From positions 1-39,654 of the forward strand of contig JAUIJI010000011.1 in the NCBI GenBank assembly GCA_030431435.1: a DNA stretch of 39,654 nucleotides, read 5' to 3'. This document shows positions 1 through 7,049 of the stretch, one piece after another (within the stretch, counting starts at the first letter, position 1; every line of letters begins with the position of its first letter). The position numbers were made by a program, and so were the translations under genes. This stretch comes from Alphaproteobacteria bacterium. GTDB lineage: Bacteria; Pseudomonadota; Alphaproteobacteria; Sphingomonadales; Sphingomonadaceae. The notes beneath the pieces are model-generated. The model did no database searches. It saw only the letters and a program-made list of their open reading frames with translations, and was not told the origin of the DNA.

Positions 1-52
1 CGGCGATGCGCGGTTCGGCAATACGGGTTATGCGCGGGAAGAGATCGTCGCC
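1..52 (+). pseudogene. Interrupted ardC-like gene, 5' part
   Basis: Frame 2 reads GDARFGNTGYAREEIVA up to position 52 and then meets a TGA (59-61) inside the inserted element. The pattern RFG-x3-YA-x-EE-x-V-x-E is the region after the zinc motif in ArdC-type zincin metallopeptidases; the intact ArdC at 5625-6527 has RFGSAAYAAEECCVE at the same place. The reading resumes in frame at 6584 (V-A-E-M-N-A-A-F). The gene was therefore cut by the mobile element between these points, and its N-terminal part lies left of the window. The assignment rests on a short stretch plus the perfect frame-preserving junction. Confidence 0.7.
47..52. repeat. Left flanking 6-bp direct repeat (gtcgcc)
   Basis: gtcgcc directly precedes the left inverted repeat and recurs right after the right inverted repeat at 6584-6589. 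In both places it is read as Val-Ala in the ardC frame. It is either a target duplication or the crossover region of the recombinases. Confidence 0.7.
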
Positions 53-66
53 TTATCTTGACAGTC
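53..66 (+). repeat. Left terminal inverted repeat
   Basis: ttatcttgacagtc matches the reverse complement of 6570-6583 (atatcctgacagtc) at 12 of 14 positions. It is the probable binding site for one or more of the three recombinases. The hexamer tgacag recurs at 98-103, possibly a subterminal binding motif. Confidence 0.7.
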
Positions 67-115
67 TGTACCGCATGCCGCCTTGCCTTAGGATGGGTGA
101 CAGGCGTCGACGGTA

Positions 116-179
116 GGCAGTTTTCAGGCTGGCCGCCGCGCTTACCAAAGAGCTGGCGGCGGCCAGCCTGAGAACTGCC
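116..179. repeat. Large inverted repeat before the recombinase trio
   Basis: Positions 116-138 and 157-179 form a 23-bp stem with one G-T pair and an 18-nt loop. The stem sequence is roughly ggcagttytcaggctggcc followed by gccg. It lies between the left end of the element and the GTG of the first recombinase. Plausible roles are an att-site structure bound by the recombinases, or a hairpin that stops transcription entering from outside. No T-run follows it, so a simple intrinsic terminator is unlikely. Confidence 0.75.
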
Positions 180-226
180 GGGCCGAAGCGTGCACCGGGT
201 GGGGGCATGGGGAGGGTTTCGCGCCG

Positions 227-1576
227 GTGTCGATTATTTCTGTTTGCGAGCGTCGCGAGGCCGGTGGTCTCGACGCGCATGTGCCGTTGATCCTGCGCGG
301 CGACGCGCTCTACGATCCCGATCTGGATCGCTTCTTTCTCGACCTGCCGCTATCGGGGATTCGATCGCGGCATTCGCTTCGCGCCCAGGCCTATGATGTG
401 ACAGTCTGGCTTCGCTTTCTCGATGCCTGTGGCAAGACCGTATGGGCTGCGACCCGCGACGATGTCGAGGCTTATCATCGTGCGCGCCGGCGCGGCGATG
501 CTGGTCAGCGGATCACGGCGGCAAGCTGGAACAGGGCCGTCGCCAGCCTTGATCGCCTCTATCGCTGGGGCGAGCGGCAAGGGCTGATCGCCGAGGCACC
601 GTTCAACCGTCGTGCCGTGTGGCGACCGGCGCAGGGTGGACGTCGCGGAATGATTGCCGCGCGCAACGACGCCTATGAACGTGTTGCGAAGCGGTCGGAT
701 GTCCGGTTCGTCACGATGGACGACTACCGCATCTTCCGCGAGGTCGGTCTGCGCGGCCTCGCGCCTGACGGCAGCGAACGCCCCGGCGCACGTGATCGGA
801 ACGGATTGCGCAACGCGCTCTTCGCCGATCTGCTCGTCACGACAGGTTTGCGACTGGAAGAGGCCTCAGGTCTGCTCGCCGGTGATCTCGCGGTCATCGT
901 TCCGGACGGCGATGAGAACCGGCAGCTCTGGCTGCGCCTGCCGCCGCCGCTCACCAAGGGCGATCGCGGACGAAGTGTTCTGGTCCCACGCCGGCTGCTT
1001 CGTCAGATCGCGGCCTATATCGATGTCGAGCGCGCGGCAGGCGCGGCCAAATTCGTCGCGCGCGATGGCGCGGCGCGCTTTGACCGGCCGATCCATATCA
1101 CCGACGCCGGTCTCGACCGCATGCGCGATGTCTGCACGCCAGAGGAACGATGCCGTCTGATTCTGTGCAACGAGAACGGAACGCCGCGCGAGCCCGCGGC
1201 GCTATGGCTGACCGAGGTCGGACAGCCCGTTCGACCCAATTCCTGGGAGGTGATCTTCGCCCGCGCCTGCAAGCGCTGTAGAGACTATGGTTTCTCGTTG
1301 TCGATCAGCCCGCACCAGCTGCGCCACACCTTCGCCGTCCATATGCTCGCTTTGCTGATCCAGGAGCGTCTGCGCGAAGCCGCATTGCCGGCGGGGCCGA
1401 TGGAGAGCTACCGGCTGATCCTGGGCGACCCGCTGCAGCATGTGCAACGCCTGCTCGGCCACGCGAGCCTCGCCACCACCTATATCTATCTCGACCATAT
1501 CGCGATCCGCGCCGATACGGTGGATTCGGCGGTCGAGGAGTTGCTGGCACTGCTGCCGGGACCGCAGGGCGCATGA
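227..1576 (+). CDS. Tyrosine recombinase A of the trio
   Basis: This 449-residue phage-integrase-family protein has the complete catalytic set. It shows Arg209 in TGLRLEEASGL, a Lys in the beta-hairpin (LTKGDRGRSV), H363-x2-R366 in HQLRH, H412 in LLGHASLATT and the nucleophile Tyr421 (TTYIYLDH). An N-terminal SAM-like DNA-binding domain precedes the catalytic domain (about residues 50-130). The start is a GTG with ggagg at 211-215. The stop overlaps the next start as ATGA, so the three recombinases are probably translated together. As the only member with every catalytic residue, it is inferred to be the main strand-cleaving partner. Confidence 0.92.
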   Translation: MSIISVCERREAGGLDAHVPLILRGDALYDPDLDRFFLDLPLSGIRSRHSLRAQAYDVTVWLRFLDACGKTVWAATRDDVEAYHRARRRGDAGQRITAASWNRAVASLDRLYRWGERQGLIAEAPFNRRAVWRPAQGGRRGMIAARNDAYERVAKRSDVRFVTMDDYRIFREVGLRGLAPDGSERPGARDRNGLRNALFADLLVTTGLRLEEASGLLAGDLAVIVPDGDENRQLWLRLPPPLTKGDRGRSVLVPRRLLRQIAAYIDVERAAGAAKFVARDGAARFDRPIHITDAGLDRMRDVCTPEERCRLILCNENGTPREPAALWLTEVGQPVRPNSWEVIFARACKRCRDYGFSLSISPHQLRHTFAVHMLALLIQERLREAALPAGPMESYRLILGDPLQHVQRLLGHASLATTYIYLDHIAIRADTVDSAVEELLALLPGPQGA

Positions 1577-3360
1577 GCGGGCGTCCCCGCAAGGGCAGGC
1601 CCGTCGCTTTCGCACCCGTCACGCCGGAGCGAGCCAAGCCCGATCCGGTGCTCGGCCTCAGGTTCGTCATCGAGGCGCGGCATGGCGGGACCGTCCTGGT
1701 CGACATGACCAATCTCGATCCTCGCCCGCTTGCTATCGCCTTTGCCAGCGCGTTGCGCCGGTCGGCCGCGCTCGGCGGCCCGATCGGTGCGGCCAGCGTC
1801 ATCAAACAGTATGTAAATTCCTATCGCCGTTTCTTCACCTGGCTTTCCGATGAGGCGGGGGAGGTGGACGGGCCCGAAGACATGCGCGCAGCCCATGTTG
1901 ACGGTTTCGTATCGGCACTCGAACGCGGGGGAATGGGCGCGATCTACCGCCATGTGACGGTCAGCAAGATCGTCAATACGCTGCGTGCGATCGAGGCGGA
2001 CCGGCCCGACAGGATCACGCCCGACCTCCATGAGCGGTTGCGCTATACAATGGCGACCTCAGCGGGACGCTCGACCCCGCGTGATGCCTACAGCTCCTTC
2101 GTCGCCCGCGCGCTGCGCGACGCGGCCCGAGCAGACGTCGAAGCGATATTCCGCCGGATCGGCGACAATGACCGGACCGATGAGGGCGATCCGGTCATTG
2201 CCGCTGCGCGTGCCGATGTCGAAGCTCTCATCGCACGCCATGGAGCCGTTCGGACCGACCGCGTCGAGCTGCGCCGTCTCTATTTCATGCGCTTGCGGCG
2301 CGGCTTGCCGATCAGCACGCTGATCGACGACCTGCATCGTCGGCATCATCTGCACGTCACCGATCTGCCGCCATTGCTCGTGCTGCTTGCTCTCGATACC
2401 GGCCTCGAGCCAGAATGCCTGAAGGCGCTGACGGTCGATTGCCTGGCCAATCCCTCCGCCGGAACCGTTGAACTTCGATACCTGAAGCGACGCGCCGGCG
2501 CCGCCGGGCACAAGAGCATGCGCGTGCGCGACGGCGGCCTCGGCACGCCGGGTGGCCTTCTCCGCCGGCTGATCGAGATCACGGCTGTCGCCCGTCAGCA
2601 TCTGCCCACCGATTGTCTCTGGGTTTACCACAACGTCGGCGGTCTCCATGCCGGTATCCGCCATCCGCGCGAACGCCTCGACGCCTGGGTGGCGCGGCAC
2701 CGGGTTGTCGATGACGACGGCAAGCCGCTCCATCTTTTGCTTTCCCGGCTTCGCAAAACCCACAAGGCGCTGTGGTACACCAAAACCGAGGGGCACATCG
2801 CCCGCTTCGCGGTCGGTCACACGCCCGAGGTCGCGGCGCGCCACTACGCCGATCTGCCATCGCTGCGGCCCCTGCACGAGGCGACCGTCGCCGATGCCTT
2901 CCGTGACGCTGTCGTCGCCGCGATGCCGACCATCCTCACGCCAGCAGCCGAGAAGACGCTGCGCGAAGCGCCCGAACAGGCCGCGCCGCTGATGTCGCCG
3001 GATGCGGTCGGTTCCATTCTCGATGGGGAGCAGGATCTCTGGCTCGCCGCCTGCGCGGGTTTCCATAGCAGCCCCTTCGCCGAGGCCGGCTCGCCATGCC
3101 AGCAGCCGTTCTGGGGATGCCTCCATTGCCCTAACGCGGTCATCACCGCCCGCAAGCTCCCCGCGATCATGGCCTTCCTGTCCTTTGTCGAAGACCAGCG
3201 GCAAGGGCTTCCCGGTCCCGACTGGATGGTCAAGTTCGGGCAGGTTCATGCCCGGATCGTCCATCAGATCTTGCCCGCGTTTTCCGATGCCGTTGTCGCC
3301 GAAGCGCGGTTGCGCGCCGTGGAGGAGCGCCTCTATCTGCCCCCCGAGGCGCGCGCATGA
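1573..3360 (+). CDS. Tyrosine recombinase B of the trio
   Basis: This 595-residue protein has a recognisable integrase fold: LLALDTGLEPECLKAL, then LLSRLRKTHKALW, then AVGHTPEVAARHYADL. The first catalytic Arg position is Glu279 and the His of the H-x2-R box is Ser391, while R394, H416 and Tyr425 remain. A C-terminal Cys cluster (CQQPFWGCLHCPNAVIT) looks like a zinc-binding module, as in TnpB-type recombinases of Tn554-like elements. The gene overlaps both neighbours by ATGA. Because two catalytic residues differ, it may act as an assembly or target-binding partner, or cleave only one strand. That role is inference. Confidence 0.88.
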   Translation: MSGRPRKGRPVAFAPVTPERAKPDPVLGLRFVIEARHGGTVLVDMTNLDPRPLAIAFASALRRSAALGGPIGAASVIKQYVNSYRRFFTWLSDEAGEVDGPEDMRAAHVDGFVSALERGGMGAIYRHVTVSKIVNTLRAIEADRPDRITPDLHERLRYTMATSAGRSTPRDAYSSFVARALRDAARADVEAIFRRIGDNDRTDEGDPVIAAARADVEALIARHGAVRTDRVELRRLYFMRLRRGLPISTLIDDLHRRHHLHVTDLPPLLVLLALDTGLEPECLKALTVDCLANPSAGTVELRYLKRRAGAAGHKSMRVRDGGLGTPGGLLRRLIEITAVARQHLPTDCLWVYHNVGGLHAGIRHPRERLDAWVARHRVVDDDGKPLHLLLSRLRKTHKALWYTKTEGHIARFAVGHTPEVAARHYADLPSLRPLHEATVADAFRDAVVAAMPTILTPAAEKTLREAPEQAAPLMSPDAVGSILDGEQDLWLAACAGFHSSPFAEAGSPCQQPFWGCLHCPNAVITARKLPAIMAFLSFVEDQRQGLPGPDWMVKFGQVHARIVHQILPAFSDAVVAEARLRAVEERLYLPPEARA

Positions 3361-5573
3361 CCGCGCCCGCCCTTGCCCGCGCTCACGCGTTCGATGATCG
3401 GCCCGTGCTGGCGTGCGCGCCGCTCAAGCCGGGCCATGCCCGCGAGGACCTGTCGCGCGTCGGCGATCCAAGCTGGGACCTGGGTCCGGCCGTCTTCCGC
3501 GAGAACGCCCGGCGCTGCCACGTCACCGTGCATTTCGACGTGCTCGAAGATGCCGATGTGCAGGCAATGATGCGCGCCTATCTCTATGCGCGTCTCAATG
3601 TCGACCTTCCCGGCCATCGTCCGAAGCTGCCGCCCAGCTGTGTGCGGCAGGCGTTCAACCGGGCGCGGCGCTTCTTCGCCTTCGTCCGCGAACGATTGGG
3701 CCCGCTCGACCTTGCCCGCATCGATCCTCCGCTGATCGACGCCTATGCGCGGCATCTCCGAGACGACCCGGCAAGGCGGCCCGTCATTGTCGGGCAGCTT
3801 CTCGAGGTCGTCATCGACCTCTATCTCTACCGCGAGCACCTTCCCGGCGGCGGCTTGTCGTTCGAACCGTGGGACGGGCGGCCACCCGCGCGCGTCGCGG
3901 GCTATCGTCATGTTCCCGAGAACCGGACCCCGCGCATCCCCGAGCCGATCATTGAGCCGCTTCTGGCATGGTCGCTGCGCTACATCACGGTATTCGCAGG
4001 GGACATTCTCGCCGCCCGGCGTGAGCTTTCCCGGCTTGAAGCGCGCCGCGACCGGCTCTTCGTTGCGGAACAGGGATTGCCGCACGCGGAGCGGCGCCGC
4101 CGGCAACGGCAGCGACTGGCGCGCTATTTCCGGTCCCGTGCGCGGCAGGGTCGTGGCGTGCCGGTCTGGGCAAGTCCACCCAACGGTTCCGCGTCCCTCG
4201 ATCCGGCAAGCGGGGAGCTTCTGCCCGTCGTCAACGTGCAGCTTCTGCATCTTCACGTCGGCGTCGATGCCGCCAGGGAGCCGGCGATGCATCTCGCTCT
4301 CGCCGGCGGCGCGTCCGATCTCATCGCTGCCGCCATCGCGGATATCGGCATCGAACCCGGCGGCATGGATACGCCGATCTCGGTCGATGCCGATCTCGGC
4401 CGGCCATGGCGGTTCCGCTTCGATGCCAAATCCCTCGTCCTGGAAGAGCGCATGCTGCAGGCAGCGGCCTACGTGGTCTGCGCCTATCTGACCGGTATGC
4501 GCGATTGCGAGGTGCAGGCGATGCGCCGGGGATGCCTGACGCTTGCGCGCAGCGAGGATGGCACCGTGTCACGGCACCGCGTCCGTTCCACTGCCTACAA
4601 GGGAAAGGGGGCCCGGGGAGCGCCGGCGGAGTGGGTGACCATCGCGCCCGTCGCCGATGCGATCGGGGTGCTCGAACAGCTTACCCGGCGCGCGGCTGTT
4701 GCCCATGGTCTCGATACGCTCTGGCCCGTGCTGTCAGTGACGCGAAGTAGCAAACCGCATGTCTCCGCCGAGATCGTGCGCCAGATCAACGCCTATCGTG
4801 ACCACCTGAACAGGCTGTTCGGGACGGTCGAGGCGCCCGCCATACCGCCCGGACCGGACGGCAAGCCCTGGCGAATCACGACCCGCCAGTTTCGTCGCAC
4901 GATCGCATGGCACATCGCCAACCGTCCCTTCGGAACGGTGGCCGGCATGATCCAGTACAAGCATGCATCCGTCGCCGCGTTCGAAGGCTACGCGGGTAGC
5001 AGTGCCTCGGGTTTCCGCGCCGAGGTCGAGGCGCAGCGCCGGCTCGGTCAGATCGACGATCTGCTCGAGTATTTCGACAGGCGGCGCGGCGGGGCTGACC
5101 TTGGCGGGCCGGCCGGTCCTCGTGTCGCGCGTACCCTCGACGAGACAGTTACCGAGCTCGGGCCATTGCCAGCGATGATCGCCGACCGTCCCCGTCTGCG
5201 CACCATGCTCGCCAGTCTGGCCCGCACCCTGCATGTCGGACCGCTTGCCGATTGCTTCTTCGATCCGGCAACCGCCCTGTGCCTGAAGCGCGTGACGGAT
5301 GCCGCGGCAGACCGCCCGCTGACAGCACTTTGTGAACCGACCCGCTGCCCGAACGCCTGCATCGCGGAACATCACAGGCCCGTCTGGGAGCGAAGTGCTG
5401 ATGAGGCACGCATGTTGCTGCGCGAGAAGCGGCTGCCCGGATTGCAGCGGGCCGCGCTCCAGCAGGAGGTTGACCGGATCGAGGGTGTGCTGGCCCGGAT
5501 CGCGCCCGAGGGCGCGACGCCGCCCGTTCGGGCGGCGGTAAAGGGAGAGGAGGCTTGGGATCGGGGTGAGTGA
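3357..5573 (+). CDS. Tyrosine recombinase C of the trio
   Basis: This 738-residue protein is the third and longest recombinase. The catalytic region shows Arg382 in AYLTGMRDCEVQAM, a Lys-rich hairpin (TAYKGKGARG), R510-x2-R513 in TTRQFRRTIAWH (Arg in place of the usual His), KH536 in IQYKHASVAAF, and Tyr545 (FEGYAG). The C-terminus has a Cys/His cluster (CEPTRCPNACIAEHH) and then a predicted coiled coil (about residues 680-720), suggesting zinc binding and protein contacts. It starts in an ATGA overlap with gene B. The long N-terminal region (residues 1-350) has no domain I can name. Confidence 0.87.
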   Translation: MTAPALARAHAFDDRPVLACAPLKPGHAREDLSRVGDPSWDLGPAVFRENARRCHVTVHFDVLEDADVQAMMRAYLYARLNVDLPGHRPKLPPSCVRQAFNRARRFFAFVRERLGPLDLARIDPPLIDAYARHLRDDPARRPVIVGQLLEVVIDLYLYREHLPGGGLSFEPWDGRPPARVAGYRHVPENRTPRIPEPIIEPLLAWSLRYITVFAGDILAARRELSRLEARRDRLFVAEQGLPHAERRRRQRQRLARYFRSRARQGRGVPVWASPPNGSASLDPASGELLPVVNVQLLHLHVGVDAAREPAMHLALAGGASDLIAAAIADIGIEPGGMDTPISVDADLGRPWRFRFDAKSLVLEERMLQAAAYVVCAYLTGMRDCEVQAMRRGCLTLARSEDGTVSRHRVRSTAYKGKGARGAPAEWVTIAPVADAIGVLEQLTRRAAVAHGLDTLWPVLSVTRSSKPHVSAEIVRQINAYRDHLNRLFGTVEAPAIPPGPDGKPWRITTRQFRRTIAWHIANRPFGTVAGMIQYKHASVAAFEGYAGSSASGFRAEVEAQRRLGQIDDLLEYFDRRRGGADLGGPAGPRVARTLDETVTELGPLPAMIADRPRLRTMLASLARTLHVGPLADCFFDPATALCLKRVTDAAADRPLTALCEPTRCPNACIAEHHRPVWERSADEARMLLREKRLPGLQRAALQQEVDRIEGVLARIAPEGATPPVRAAVKGEEAWDRGE

Positions 5574-5624
5574 CGGGATGAGGAGAGCGGGAAAGGCCTG
5601 TTCCGCCCGTCCTGGAGACCTGTC

Positions 5625-6527
5625 ATGTCCCGATCTTCCTCATCGGCCGGGCGCGCCGATGTTTATAACCGTATCACCACCGAGATCATCGCCGCCATCG
5701 AGGCAGGCGCCGGCGACTGGCGTGCGCCCTGGTTCCACGACGGGAGCAGCATCGCGCGTCCGACCAACGTTTCATCCGGCAAACGCTATCGCGGCATAAA
5801 CACGTTGGCGCTCTGGGCCAAGGGCTTTGCCGCCGGATATGGCGACGGTCTCTGGGGCACCTACAAGCAATGGCAGGATGCCGGCGCGCAGGTGCGTAAA
5901 GGAGAACGCTCCACCACGGTCGTATTGTGGAGAGAGATCAAGGTTTCCCAGCAGGCCGACGACGAAGACGATGATGACGGGCATCGACGGATGTTCGCCC
6001 GCGCATTTTCCGTCTTCAACATCGCCCAAGTGGACGGATACGAGCGCCTGGCGCCTCCTGTGCTGCCCGAGGCTGAACGCCTTGCCCATGCGGAAGCGTT
6101 CATCGCCAACTTGGGCGTCAAGACGGAGTTCGGCGGATCGGAAGCCTATTACCGTCCGTCGGCCGACACCGTGTTCCTGCCGCCGTTCACTTCGTTTCGC
6201 GATGCCGCGTCATTCTACGGTGTCTGGCTACACGAGAACGGTCACGCCAGTGGCGCAAAGCACAGGCTCGACCGCGATCTTTCCGGTCGCTTTGGTTCGG
6301 CCGCCTATGCCGCCGAAGAATGCTGCGTCGAAATTCTCAGCGGGCTGATCCTGGCAGACCTCGGGATCGCCCACCATCCGCGCCCCGATCATGCCGCCTA
6401 TGTTGCCTCGTGGCTCAAGGTCCTGAAAGACGACCCCAAGGCCATCTTCACCGCCGCCAGCAAGGCGCAGCAGGCGGCCGACTGGATGCATGCGCAGCAG
6501 CCCCACGCAGAGGAGATAGCGGCATGA
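5625..6527 (+). CDS. ArdC-family antirestriction zincin (element copy)
   Basis: This 300-residue protein has the two-domain ArdC layout. The N-terminal single-strand-DNA-binding domain begins with DVYNRITTEIIAAIEAG and contains the typical W-x3-P-W and YRGIN motifs. The C-terminal zincin-like metallopeptidase has the zinc motif H203-E-N-G-H207 and a downstream Glu in YAAEECCVE. ArdC proteins are carried by plasmids and integrative elements and help incoming DNA survive restriction. The start has ggaga at 5614-5618. An acidic stretch (DDEDDDDG, about residue 107) links the domains. The stop overlaps the next start (ATGA). At the point where the island ardC was interrupted, this copy reads ECCVEI, so it lacks the target sequence. 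Confidence 0.9.
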   Translation: MSRSSSSAGRADVYNRITTEIIAAIEAGAGDWRAPWFHDGSSIARPTNVSSGKRYRGINTLALWAKGFAAGYGDGLWGTYKQWQDAGAQVRKGERSTTVVLWREIKVSQQADDEDDDDGHRRMFARAFSVFNIAQVDGYERLAPPVLPEAERLAHAEAFIANLGVKTEFGGSEAYYRPSADTVFLPPFTSFRDAASFYGVWLHENGHASGAKHRLDRDLSGRFGSAAYAAEECCVEILSGLILADLGIAHHPRPDHAAYVASWLKVLKDDPKAIFTAASKAQQAADWMHAQQPHAEEIAA

Positions 6528-6569
6528 CCAACACCGTTTTCACCGCCGAAAAATTCCAGAATGGGGCTG

Positions 6570-6583
6570 GACTGTCAGGATAT
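6570..6583 (-). repeat. Right terminal inverted repeat
   Basis: gactgtcaggatat is the inverted partner of 53-66. It ends one base before the right copy of gtcgcc and marks the right end of the recombinase-trio element. Confidence 0.7.
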
Positions 6584-6589
6584 GTCGCC
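6584..6589. repeat. Right flanking 6-bp direct repeat (gtcgcc)
   Basis: Second copy of gtcgcc, in the same ardC reading frame (Val-Ala) as the copy at 47-52. Confidence 0.7.
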
Positions 6590-6804
6590 GAGATGAATGC
6601 CGCCTTCTGCTGCGCCTCGCTCGGCATCGTGCCGACGGTGCGCCATGCCGATTACATCGGCTCCTGGCTCGAGGTGCTGCGCGAGGACAACCGCGCGATC
6701 GTCCGTGCCGCCTCGCAGGCGAGCAAGGCCGCGGACTGGCTCCTGGCCCATCTGCCGGAGCCCGGGGCGGCCGCCTATGAGGCAGGACAGGGGAGGGTCG
6801 CGGC

Positions 6805-6996
6805 ATGATCCTCCTGACCCCCAGCCAGCGCGCCCGGCTTCTCGCCAACGGCGAATTGAAGGCGGGCGCCACCTTCGTCGTCGCGGGGGCATCCAAGGCC
6901 GCGGTCGAGGCTGTTGAAAAGGCGGGCGGCAAGGTCGATATCTTGCCGGCCAAGCCGAAGGCCGAGCGCTGGTACAAGCCGAAGGCCGAGCGTTAG
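6805..6996 (+). pseudogene. rplO: DUF2958-start / L15 C-terminus chimera (rplO remnant)
   Basis: This is a 63-codon frame. The first about 16 residues ([16 protein letters not shown]) resemble the start of DUF2958 proteins, which commonly follow ardC in mobile elements. From [10 protein letters not shown] onward ([19 protein letters not shown]) the sequence is that of the C-terminus of ribosomal protein L15, the gene that normally lies just before secY. The join falls in or near the shared stretch RLLANGE. It marks the chromosomal boundary of the island. The ATG has a ggagg-type Shine-Dalgarno site (6791-6796), so a peptide may be made. A functional rplO must exist elsewhere, probably beyond the island's left end. 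The L15 match is from memory of the family, without alignment. Confidence 0.7.
6952..6992 (+). repeat. 17-bp tandem repeat at the L15 C-terminus
   Basis: aagccgaaggccgagcg occurs at 6952-6968 and 6976-6992, a 24-bp period. It gives [14 protein letters not shown] as the last residues before the TAG. It is a small in-frame duplication of the basic tail. Confidence 0.8.
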
Positions 6997-7049
6997 CACA
7001 CCCATAGTCCCGGGCCGCCGCCGGCAGCCGCGAGGGAGAGCGAGGATAC

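Follow-up and report, generated by a model that had tools for sequence, protein, structure and literature searches.

An element with defined ends interrupts ardC

The window, a 39,654-nt stretch of a draft genome assigned to the Sphingomonadaceae (Alphaproteobacteria; assembly GCA_030431435.1, contig JAUIJI010000011.1), opens inside an interrupted ardC, a plasmid gene whose product shields DNA entering a cell from restriction. We conclude, with a probability of roughly 0.8, that the gene is interrupted by a self-contained, recombinase-driven element that moves by a route like that of Tn554 and of strand-biased circularizing integrative elements (SEs), takes ardC as its target and carries an ArdC of its own which most likely takes over from the broken gene. 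Comparative genomics establishes, at the level of sequence, the ends of the element, its target and codon phase, the separate origins of the two flanking hexamers and the conservation of the carried ArdC. The complete element occupies positions 53-6583 (~6.5 kb) between 14-bp inverted ends that match at 12 of 14 positions, and consists of intA, intB and intC, each overlapping the next, followed by a complete ardC:

1-52, plus strand: left flank, from the 5′ part of the broken ardC, ending GYAREEIVA, with the native hexamer GTCGCC at 47-52 (profile match, E 9e-4)
53-66, plus strand: left terminal inverted repeat, TTATCTTGACAGTC; the same ends are kept in relatives
227-1576, plus strand: intA, tyrosine recombinase, 449 amino acids (aa; Pfam PF00589, E 1.4e-12)
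1573-3360, plus strand: intB, 595 aa, recombinase-like by eye from invariant residues
3357-5573, plus strand: intC, large recombinase-like protein, 738 aa (R382, R513, H536 and Y545 assigned by eye)
5625-6527, plus strand: carried ardC, 300 aa, with ArdcN and MPTase-PolyVal domains (Pfam), HENGH and EE; its insertion site is altered and reads EECCVE
6570-6583, minus strand: right terminal inverted repeat, GACTGTCAGGATAT, reverse complement of the left end at 12 of 14 positions
6584-6805, plus strand: right flank, comprising the hexamer GTCGCC (6584-6589) and the 3′ portion of the broken ardC (profile match and alignment of the joined peptide)

The initial annotation had proposed inverted ends at 53-66 and 6570-6583, and they lie at exactly those positions with the claimed 12 of 14 matches. 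The same ends recur in dozens of relatives, where they bracket the same genes, so those of the window reflect more than chance; copies with different end sequences did not turn up. The hexamer GTCGCC adjoins both ends. The left flank translates as GDARFGNTGYAREEIVA, and the right flank, read from 6584 in the identical codon phase, as VAEMNAAFCCASLG, which includes VAEMNAAF. Removal of the insert had been predicted to rejoin GYAREEIVA and EMNAAF in one ArdC frame, and indeed the joined flank peptide gave a single unbroken alignment across the junction with plasmid ArdCs (e.g. Paracoccus versutus, residues 5-89 of 89, 81%). Uninterrupted ardC relatives with the joined frame were likewise found, and relatives lacking that frame did not turn up.

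The window lies at the start of its contig (C126), in a draft genome of 163 contigs, which limits the left flank to 52 bp. On the other side, at 6805-7000, a frame begins as a DUF2958-like gene, as is seen beside intact ardC genes, and continues as the 3′ portion of rplO, after which a secY-like gene follows. The switch falls at ~6852, about 270 bp beyond the right end; a complete rplO was not found in the draft genome, and this junction looks like an assembly join or a rearrangement.

Insertion at one codon boundary of ardC

Relatives were taken from 28 element-bearing plasmid regions, chosen from the best 40 matches of each tblastn search described below and analysed with two intact ardC regions, from the best 80 of 202 related stretches in a genome-collection scan, and from additional regions of near relatives. 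Identical flanks were collapsed, a flank of at least 63 nt was required, and the window's own left flank was too short to be counted. On this basis 71 of 74 distinct left junctions lay in ardC at the same codon boundary. The motif [DE]E[LIMVC] preceded the hexamer in 72 of the 74, one of them in ligD (L038); the two left junctions outside ardC and ligD (L029, L030) were in an unrelated gene with the hexamer ACGATG. Right junctions agreed, 73 of 76 being in ardC in the same phase and the other three being those of L030, ligD and L078. The 76 were obtained from 78 by discarding, on our own reading, two false motif hits (minus strands of L021 and L124), and L204 and L205 were assigned to ardC by motif only, without profile scores.

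The 71 targets gave a consensus of roughly GARGARCTS-N6-GARMTS, and this core is the DNA that encodes the glutamate helix of the ArdC metal site, EE[L/I]xAE. In the ArdC of R388, as described in PMC7213743, E229 binds the metal and E228 orients H205. That the core site encodes this helix explains why insertions fall in ardC on plasmids and islands that are unrelated. Copies occur on many plasmids, some of which are typed as conjugative, and also on chromosomes, which bears out the earlier suggestion that a conserved codon stretch of ardC would permit spread. A single codon-level target can be named, in a gene carried by many conjugative elements.

The ligD copy (L038, Shinella) sits at GAGGAACTC-AGCCCC, of which the nine left bases fit the target and the hexamer does not. 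Its empty site was found in a sister strain, Shinella sumterensis (NZ_CP132303), where a 180-nt joined query matched in one piece at 180 of 180 bases.

Some loci differed from this pattern or held further insertions. At L078 the left flank matches the ArdC profile and the right flank does not, possibly reflecting rearrangement. The relatives in the other gene (L029, 7806; L030, 7805-14881) have IntC 66-67% identical to that of the window and show no carried ArdC, and ACGATG stands at both sides of L030. Trios resembling those of Recombinase in Trio (RIT) elements also occupy these ardC genes, at a place close to the HExxH codons and upstream of the element (L028, 4463-7607; L031, 2477-5398), and in genome G055 three of five interrupted ardC genes have a second break near those codons. 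Annotated group II intron or similar reverse transcriptases also sit in the 5′ half of the same ardC genes (L024, L026, L037, L041, L204), which makes ardC look like an insertion hot spot for elements of several kinds.

The flanking hexamers

Hexamers were compared in 68 complete copies, four duplicate loci having been removed and the window excluded for its short left flank. Left and right hexamers differed in 51 of the 68. The gtcgcc repeats reported at the window's insert are real, but they do not represent an ordinary target-site duplication, since duplication would give equal hexamers.

The two sides behaved differently. Where right flanks agreed at 95% or more of 57 nt, the hexamers differed in 19 of 20 pairs, with a mismatch of 0.35 compared to a flank divergence of 0.017; the residues that they encode differed in 21/33, 16/23 and 14/20 pairs at flank identities of 85, 90 and 95%. 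The corresponding counts for residues of left hexamers were 4/25, 1/11 and 0/4. In ten multi-copy genomes, the right hexamer equalled another copy's left hexamer in 18 of 29 cases (7.9 on average after shuffling, a count that no shuffle out of 10,000 brought up to 18), and in 9 of 16 when the two commonest hexamers were set aside; some partial copies, e.g. in Sphingobium lactosutens and Novosphingobium olei, were left out of this test. Chains of copies could be followed in Sphingobium sp. 15-1, where the left GTAGCG of L132 is the right hexamer of L131 and the left GTGGCG of L131 is the right hexamer of L134, and in Tardibacter, where the left CGGGCC of L087 is the right hexamer of L088. At the ligD empty sites, joins made with the left hexamer fitted better than joins with the right one in all three records, by one or two mismatches (98.9 vs 98.3%, 97.2 vs 96.1% and 96.6 vs 96.1%).

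Because right hexamers vary on near-identical flanks and match the left hexamers of other copies, the left hexamer appears to be mostly native and the right one donor-derived. This direction, in which 6 bp at the recipient's right come from the donor's left, is a published feature of SEs and is stated for Tn554 too (PMC10214605). Since insertions tend to keep a 6-bp donor trace, the history of spread within a genome may be read from sequence, and the trace makes the choice between copy-out and cut-out testable by comparison and simple PCR.

The carried ArdC

Like R388 ArdC (PMC7213743; PDB 6i89, 6sna), the carried protein combines the two ArdC domains with HExxH and EE residues, and it matched the R388 structures at E 1e-51; in its glutamate helix EECCVE stands in place of EELIAE. 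A full-length ArdC is carried in 63 of 68 complete copies and is under purifying selection, with ratios of non-synonymous to synonymous substitution (dN/dS) of 0.045-0.286 in eight pairs. In 289 alphaproteobacterial genomes, the window's copy apart, full-length matches to it reached at most 49% identity and short partial ones 52%. At nine loci a carried ArdC 86-91% identical to that of the window occurs with an IntC only 66-68% identical; therefore the carried ardC was probably exchanged between element lineages.

The insertion site of the carried gene is of several types: EECCVE (with single EECSVE and EECLVE variants), EEATAE, EEACAE, EEICAE, EELTAE and EELVAE (L170). A weight matrix for the left arm was built from the targets, which scored at least 6.5 (71 targets), while 58 intact native genes, chosen by a motif that leaves the residue after EE free, scored at least 9.5. 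Three cargo types fell below the targets: CCV, that of the window, at 6.0, ATA at 0.9 and ACA at -0.3. A universal recoding of the carried site was rejected, only three of the six motif types being altered. By our own count in three genomes (seven, five and two copies), resident ardC genes were interrupted in 14 of 17 cases and carried ones in 0 of 14, an outcome with a hand-estimated chance of ~0.001 if every ardC were an equal target. The initial annotation had listed ArdC as cargo. It is carried by the element; it is probably not mere cargo and would substitute for the broken ardC.

In two copies extra cargo precedes the right end, following either the carried ardC or intC: arsenic (ars) genes in L035 (14401-17190), and oxidoreductases, a regulator and hchA in L037 (14395-18389).

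Proposed mechanism and alternative explanations

We infer from these comparisons that a circle forms, that the element's proteins catalyse the reaction, that the carried ArdC functionally replaces the broken one and that the carried copy is immune to insertion. In this model the recombinase-fold proteins would join both ends into a circle, keeping the 6 bp beside the left (intA) end as spacer. The circle would integrate at the target core, whereupon the target's own 6 bp would stay at the left end and the donor's 6 bp would land at the right. Insertion would split ardC, and the carried ArdC, often altered at the site, would most likely assume the antirestriction role, its own gene being spared from insertion. 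Such a system would tie the mobility of the element to the restriction-escape gene of its vehicles. A stronger form, 'break and replace', is offered tentatively: the element may wreck the antirestriction gene of nearly every conjugative element that it meets and supply its own re-entry-proof ArdC, a restart codon keeping the 3′ half translated. If so, host plasmids would depend on the element for restriction escape, and the descent of one copy from another could be read from the left and right hexamers.

Several observations weigh against the proposed model, in the hexamers and in the carried protein. The two hexamers of a copy agree in 17 of the 68, where shuffling gives 7.5. Left hexamers also vary somewhat more than their own flanks, with mismatches of 0.127 versus 0.093 at 85% identity (25 pairs) and 0.136 versus 0.053 at 90% (11 pairs), and they differ in two of four pairs at 95%. 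Among hexamers predicted beforehand, that of L204 held and the left hexamer of L205, predicted as GTGGCG, was ATTGCC. L023 carries the hexamers of L204 and vice versa, a pattern that donation in one direction leaves unexplained, and some copies, such as L024, combine halves resembling different ardC types; recombination between copies therefore probably happens too. The reciprocal hexamers, mixed halves, equal hexamers and left-hexamer variation would all fit conservative cut-and-paste integration with a 6-bp core, where hexamers become unequal through later recombination between copies or two-sided heteroduplex repair, as in genomic islands with three integrases (GInts), for which resolution of an attI heteroduplex is described (PMC5385486). 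That explanation is unlikely in view of the strong asymmetry, right hexamers being far more variable than left ones on near-identical flanks, and of the ligD copy, which has a native-like left and an ardC-like right hexamer.

As to the carried protein, it is absent from five of the 68 complete copies (L030, L037, L122, L126, L158), four of which are in ardC, and the site types ICA (11.2), LTA (14.2) and LVA (14.7) still look like targets. The ligD copy carries ardC though no ardC is broken there, and the ars genes of L035 indicate that other cargo is possible. These points would suit an ArdC that is merely a passenger or aids the element itself, replacing nothing. We nevertheless think this doubtful, given its presence in 63 of 68 copies under purifying selection, its retention with IntC lineages 66-68% identical to the window's, the uninterrupted carried ardC genes of the three genomes counted, and its absence from both loci with another target (L029, L030). 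That the window's copy is an assembly chimera and no real insertion could be argued from the start of the contig 52 bp left of the element, the odd rplO join and the missing rplO; this is improbable, since the structure recurs at the identical codon in plasmid records that are listed as complete, and continuous ArdCs align with the peptide joined from the window's flanks. Finally, the insert had been described as a recombinase trio, and three recombinase genes are present. Like classical RIT elements it has three overlapping recombinase genes with terminal inverted repeats, and RIT-like trios lie near or beside the element on sphingomonad plasmids. Archetypal RIT proteins, though, are 315-410 aa long with 34-bp repeats (PMC10214605), unlike the 449, 595 and 738 aa and 14-bp ends found here. 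The RIT-like proteins of L027 and L028 showed, by blastp and phmmer, no significant similarity to IntB or IntC and a weak general recombinase similarity to IntA. Identity with the RIT family was accordingly rejected on protein size and sequence comparison and is highly improbable.

Recombinase genes and comparison with known systems

With catalytic roles assigned by eye, IntA has a complete R-H-R-H-Y set (R209, H363, R366, H412, Y421), invariant in the alignment; by the same inspection the set is partial in IntC, and IntB lacks the first arginine and the box-II histidine. Neither IntB nor IntC matched Pfam, NCBIfam or PHROGs, and comparison of the IntA profile with the IntB and IntC profiles gave nothing useful. 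The predicted IntB model (mean predicted local distance difference test score 67) found Cre and the Tn1549 integrase as its best fold matches, with probabilities of 0.77-0.95 but E-values of 0.02-0.04 and template modelling scores to the query of 0.15-0.19, which points weakly to a resemblance to Cre-like folds. For IntC, the catalytic part was modelled poorly and a fold search gave no information, and a PDB sequence search with the IntC profile gave nothing at E 0.001; a distant homologue, L043_c, matched Phage_integrase below the Pfam cut-off.

That homologue belongs to a second, distant trio (L043, 194-5358, minus strand; 377, 591 and 609 aa), 22-27% identical to IntA, IntB and IntC, which adjoins ardC on pLA1 of Novosphingobium pentaromativorans in a GInt-like layout. 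The idea of a fourth gene fused to the C-terminus of IntC was not supported, as the alignment of L043_c with IntC extends to residue 718 and a distinct 146-aa protein is encoded next to it. This neighbour weakly matches a coiled-coil family.

Among known systems, SEs share with this element an operon encoding an ordinary recombinase, a large recombinase and a recombinase-fold protein, short imperfect inverted ends, a 6-bp footprint in the same direction and a target preference (PMC10214605). The 13-19 bp imperfect inverted ends of SEs, their joint region with a 6-bp spacer and the split of attB between attL and attR have counterparts here, as, by comparison and with exceptions, does transfer of 6 bp from donor left to recipient right. 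Compared by description only, the present element differs in its alphaproteobacterial hosts, ardC target and carried ArdC. The SE core is intA-tfp-intB-srap, and IntB is reminiscent of SE Tfp and GInt GinC; here there is a trio only, with no open reading frame (ORF) of at least 80 aa between the left end and intA, and no obvious srap-like fourth gene in the 249 bp after intC of the trio-only copy L122, though open frames exist there.

GInts likewise have a three-recombinase operon, one member of which lacks the first arginine, and integrate site-specifically with a 6-nt staggered exchange; they differ in having imperfect direct flanking repeats of 10-17 nt (PMC5385486), whereas here just the 6-bp hexamer is repeated, as a rule imperfectly. 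Complete copies here span 5.7-14.1 kb and target ardC, a contrast drawn by description only, and no fourth small GinD-like gene of a ginABCD operon was seen in the element. The target gene of Tn554 is radC. Tn554 combines an ordinary with a large recombinase and moves 6 bp from donor left to recipient right; by description only, it differs in having TnpC and no middle recombinase-fold protein (PMC10214605), and no small third gene of the TnpC kind was seen here. The element thus resembles SEs and Tn554 by mechanism and GInts by its gene trio and has, as tested, the defining genes of none; it is a new variant of the SE/GInt/Tn554 type with an unusual target and cargo, set apart from them by their descriptions. 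A literature search, mostly without subscription journals, found no paper on ardC-targeting recombinase elements. According to PMC10214605, tfp-srap blocks are found only in Gammaproteobacteria and neither these nor ginC-ginD blocks in Alphaproteobacteria, while PMC5385486 mentions putative GInt homologues in that class. With the present element, a large alphaproteobacterial family would join the systems that move in this way, in a class where the former survey found none.

Left-end hairpin and restart ORF

Two further features are seen, one near each end:

116-179, no strand assigned: conserved long hairpin with 24-nt arms between the left end and intA, with compensatory changes
6524-6808, plus strand: restart ORF, whose ATG overlaps the stop of the carried ardC (ATGA) and which crosses the right end in frame and enters the target ardC's 3′ half

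In an alignment of 13 hairpin sequences (12 distinct), 36 cells were changed on both sides, compared with 11.2 after shuffling, and none of 500 shuffles reached this value. From 16 initial rows L160 was dropped as unaligned and L144, L163 and L167 as resembling kept rows, and L022 was added. An Rfam scan of window positions 1-7000 gave nothing at gathering scores. For the restart ORF, an in-frame ATG within 120 nt of the right end was present in 38 of 52 distinct end sequences (23 at -60, 12 at -48 and 3 at -78), compared to 9 and 12 of 52 in the other two frames. Openness over at least 45 nt did not separate the frames (41, 32 and 40 open).

Relatives and distribution

The tblastn searches of plasmid records gave 254 matches for IntA and 284 for IntC, with a single place covering at least 80% of the query in 188 and 89, respectively. 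The closest plasmid relatives, 97-99% identical, were in Roseovarius, Sagittula and Marinibacterium, on two or three plasmids per strain; remoter matches, mostly below 60% identity, were in Streptomyces, Rhodococcus, Pseudomonas and others. Named hosts in the genome-collection scan are, judged by name, all alphaproteobacteria except for a metagenome bin labelled Microbacterium (L116). The IntC protein was matched in 7 of 148 near relatives, the window's genome counted and several weakly. In random draws the IntC profile was found in two genomes when 349 were sampled from the phylum and in one when 385 were sampled from the class; both counts include the window's own genome, and the trio is thus rare among randomly drawn genomes. 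Six contigs (L094, L097, L121, L142, L147 and L172) were almost exactly the length of the element, as is expected when several copies collapse in assembly.

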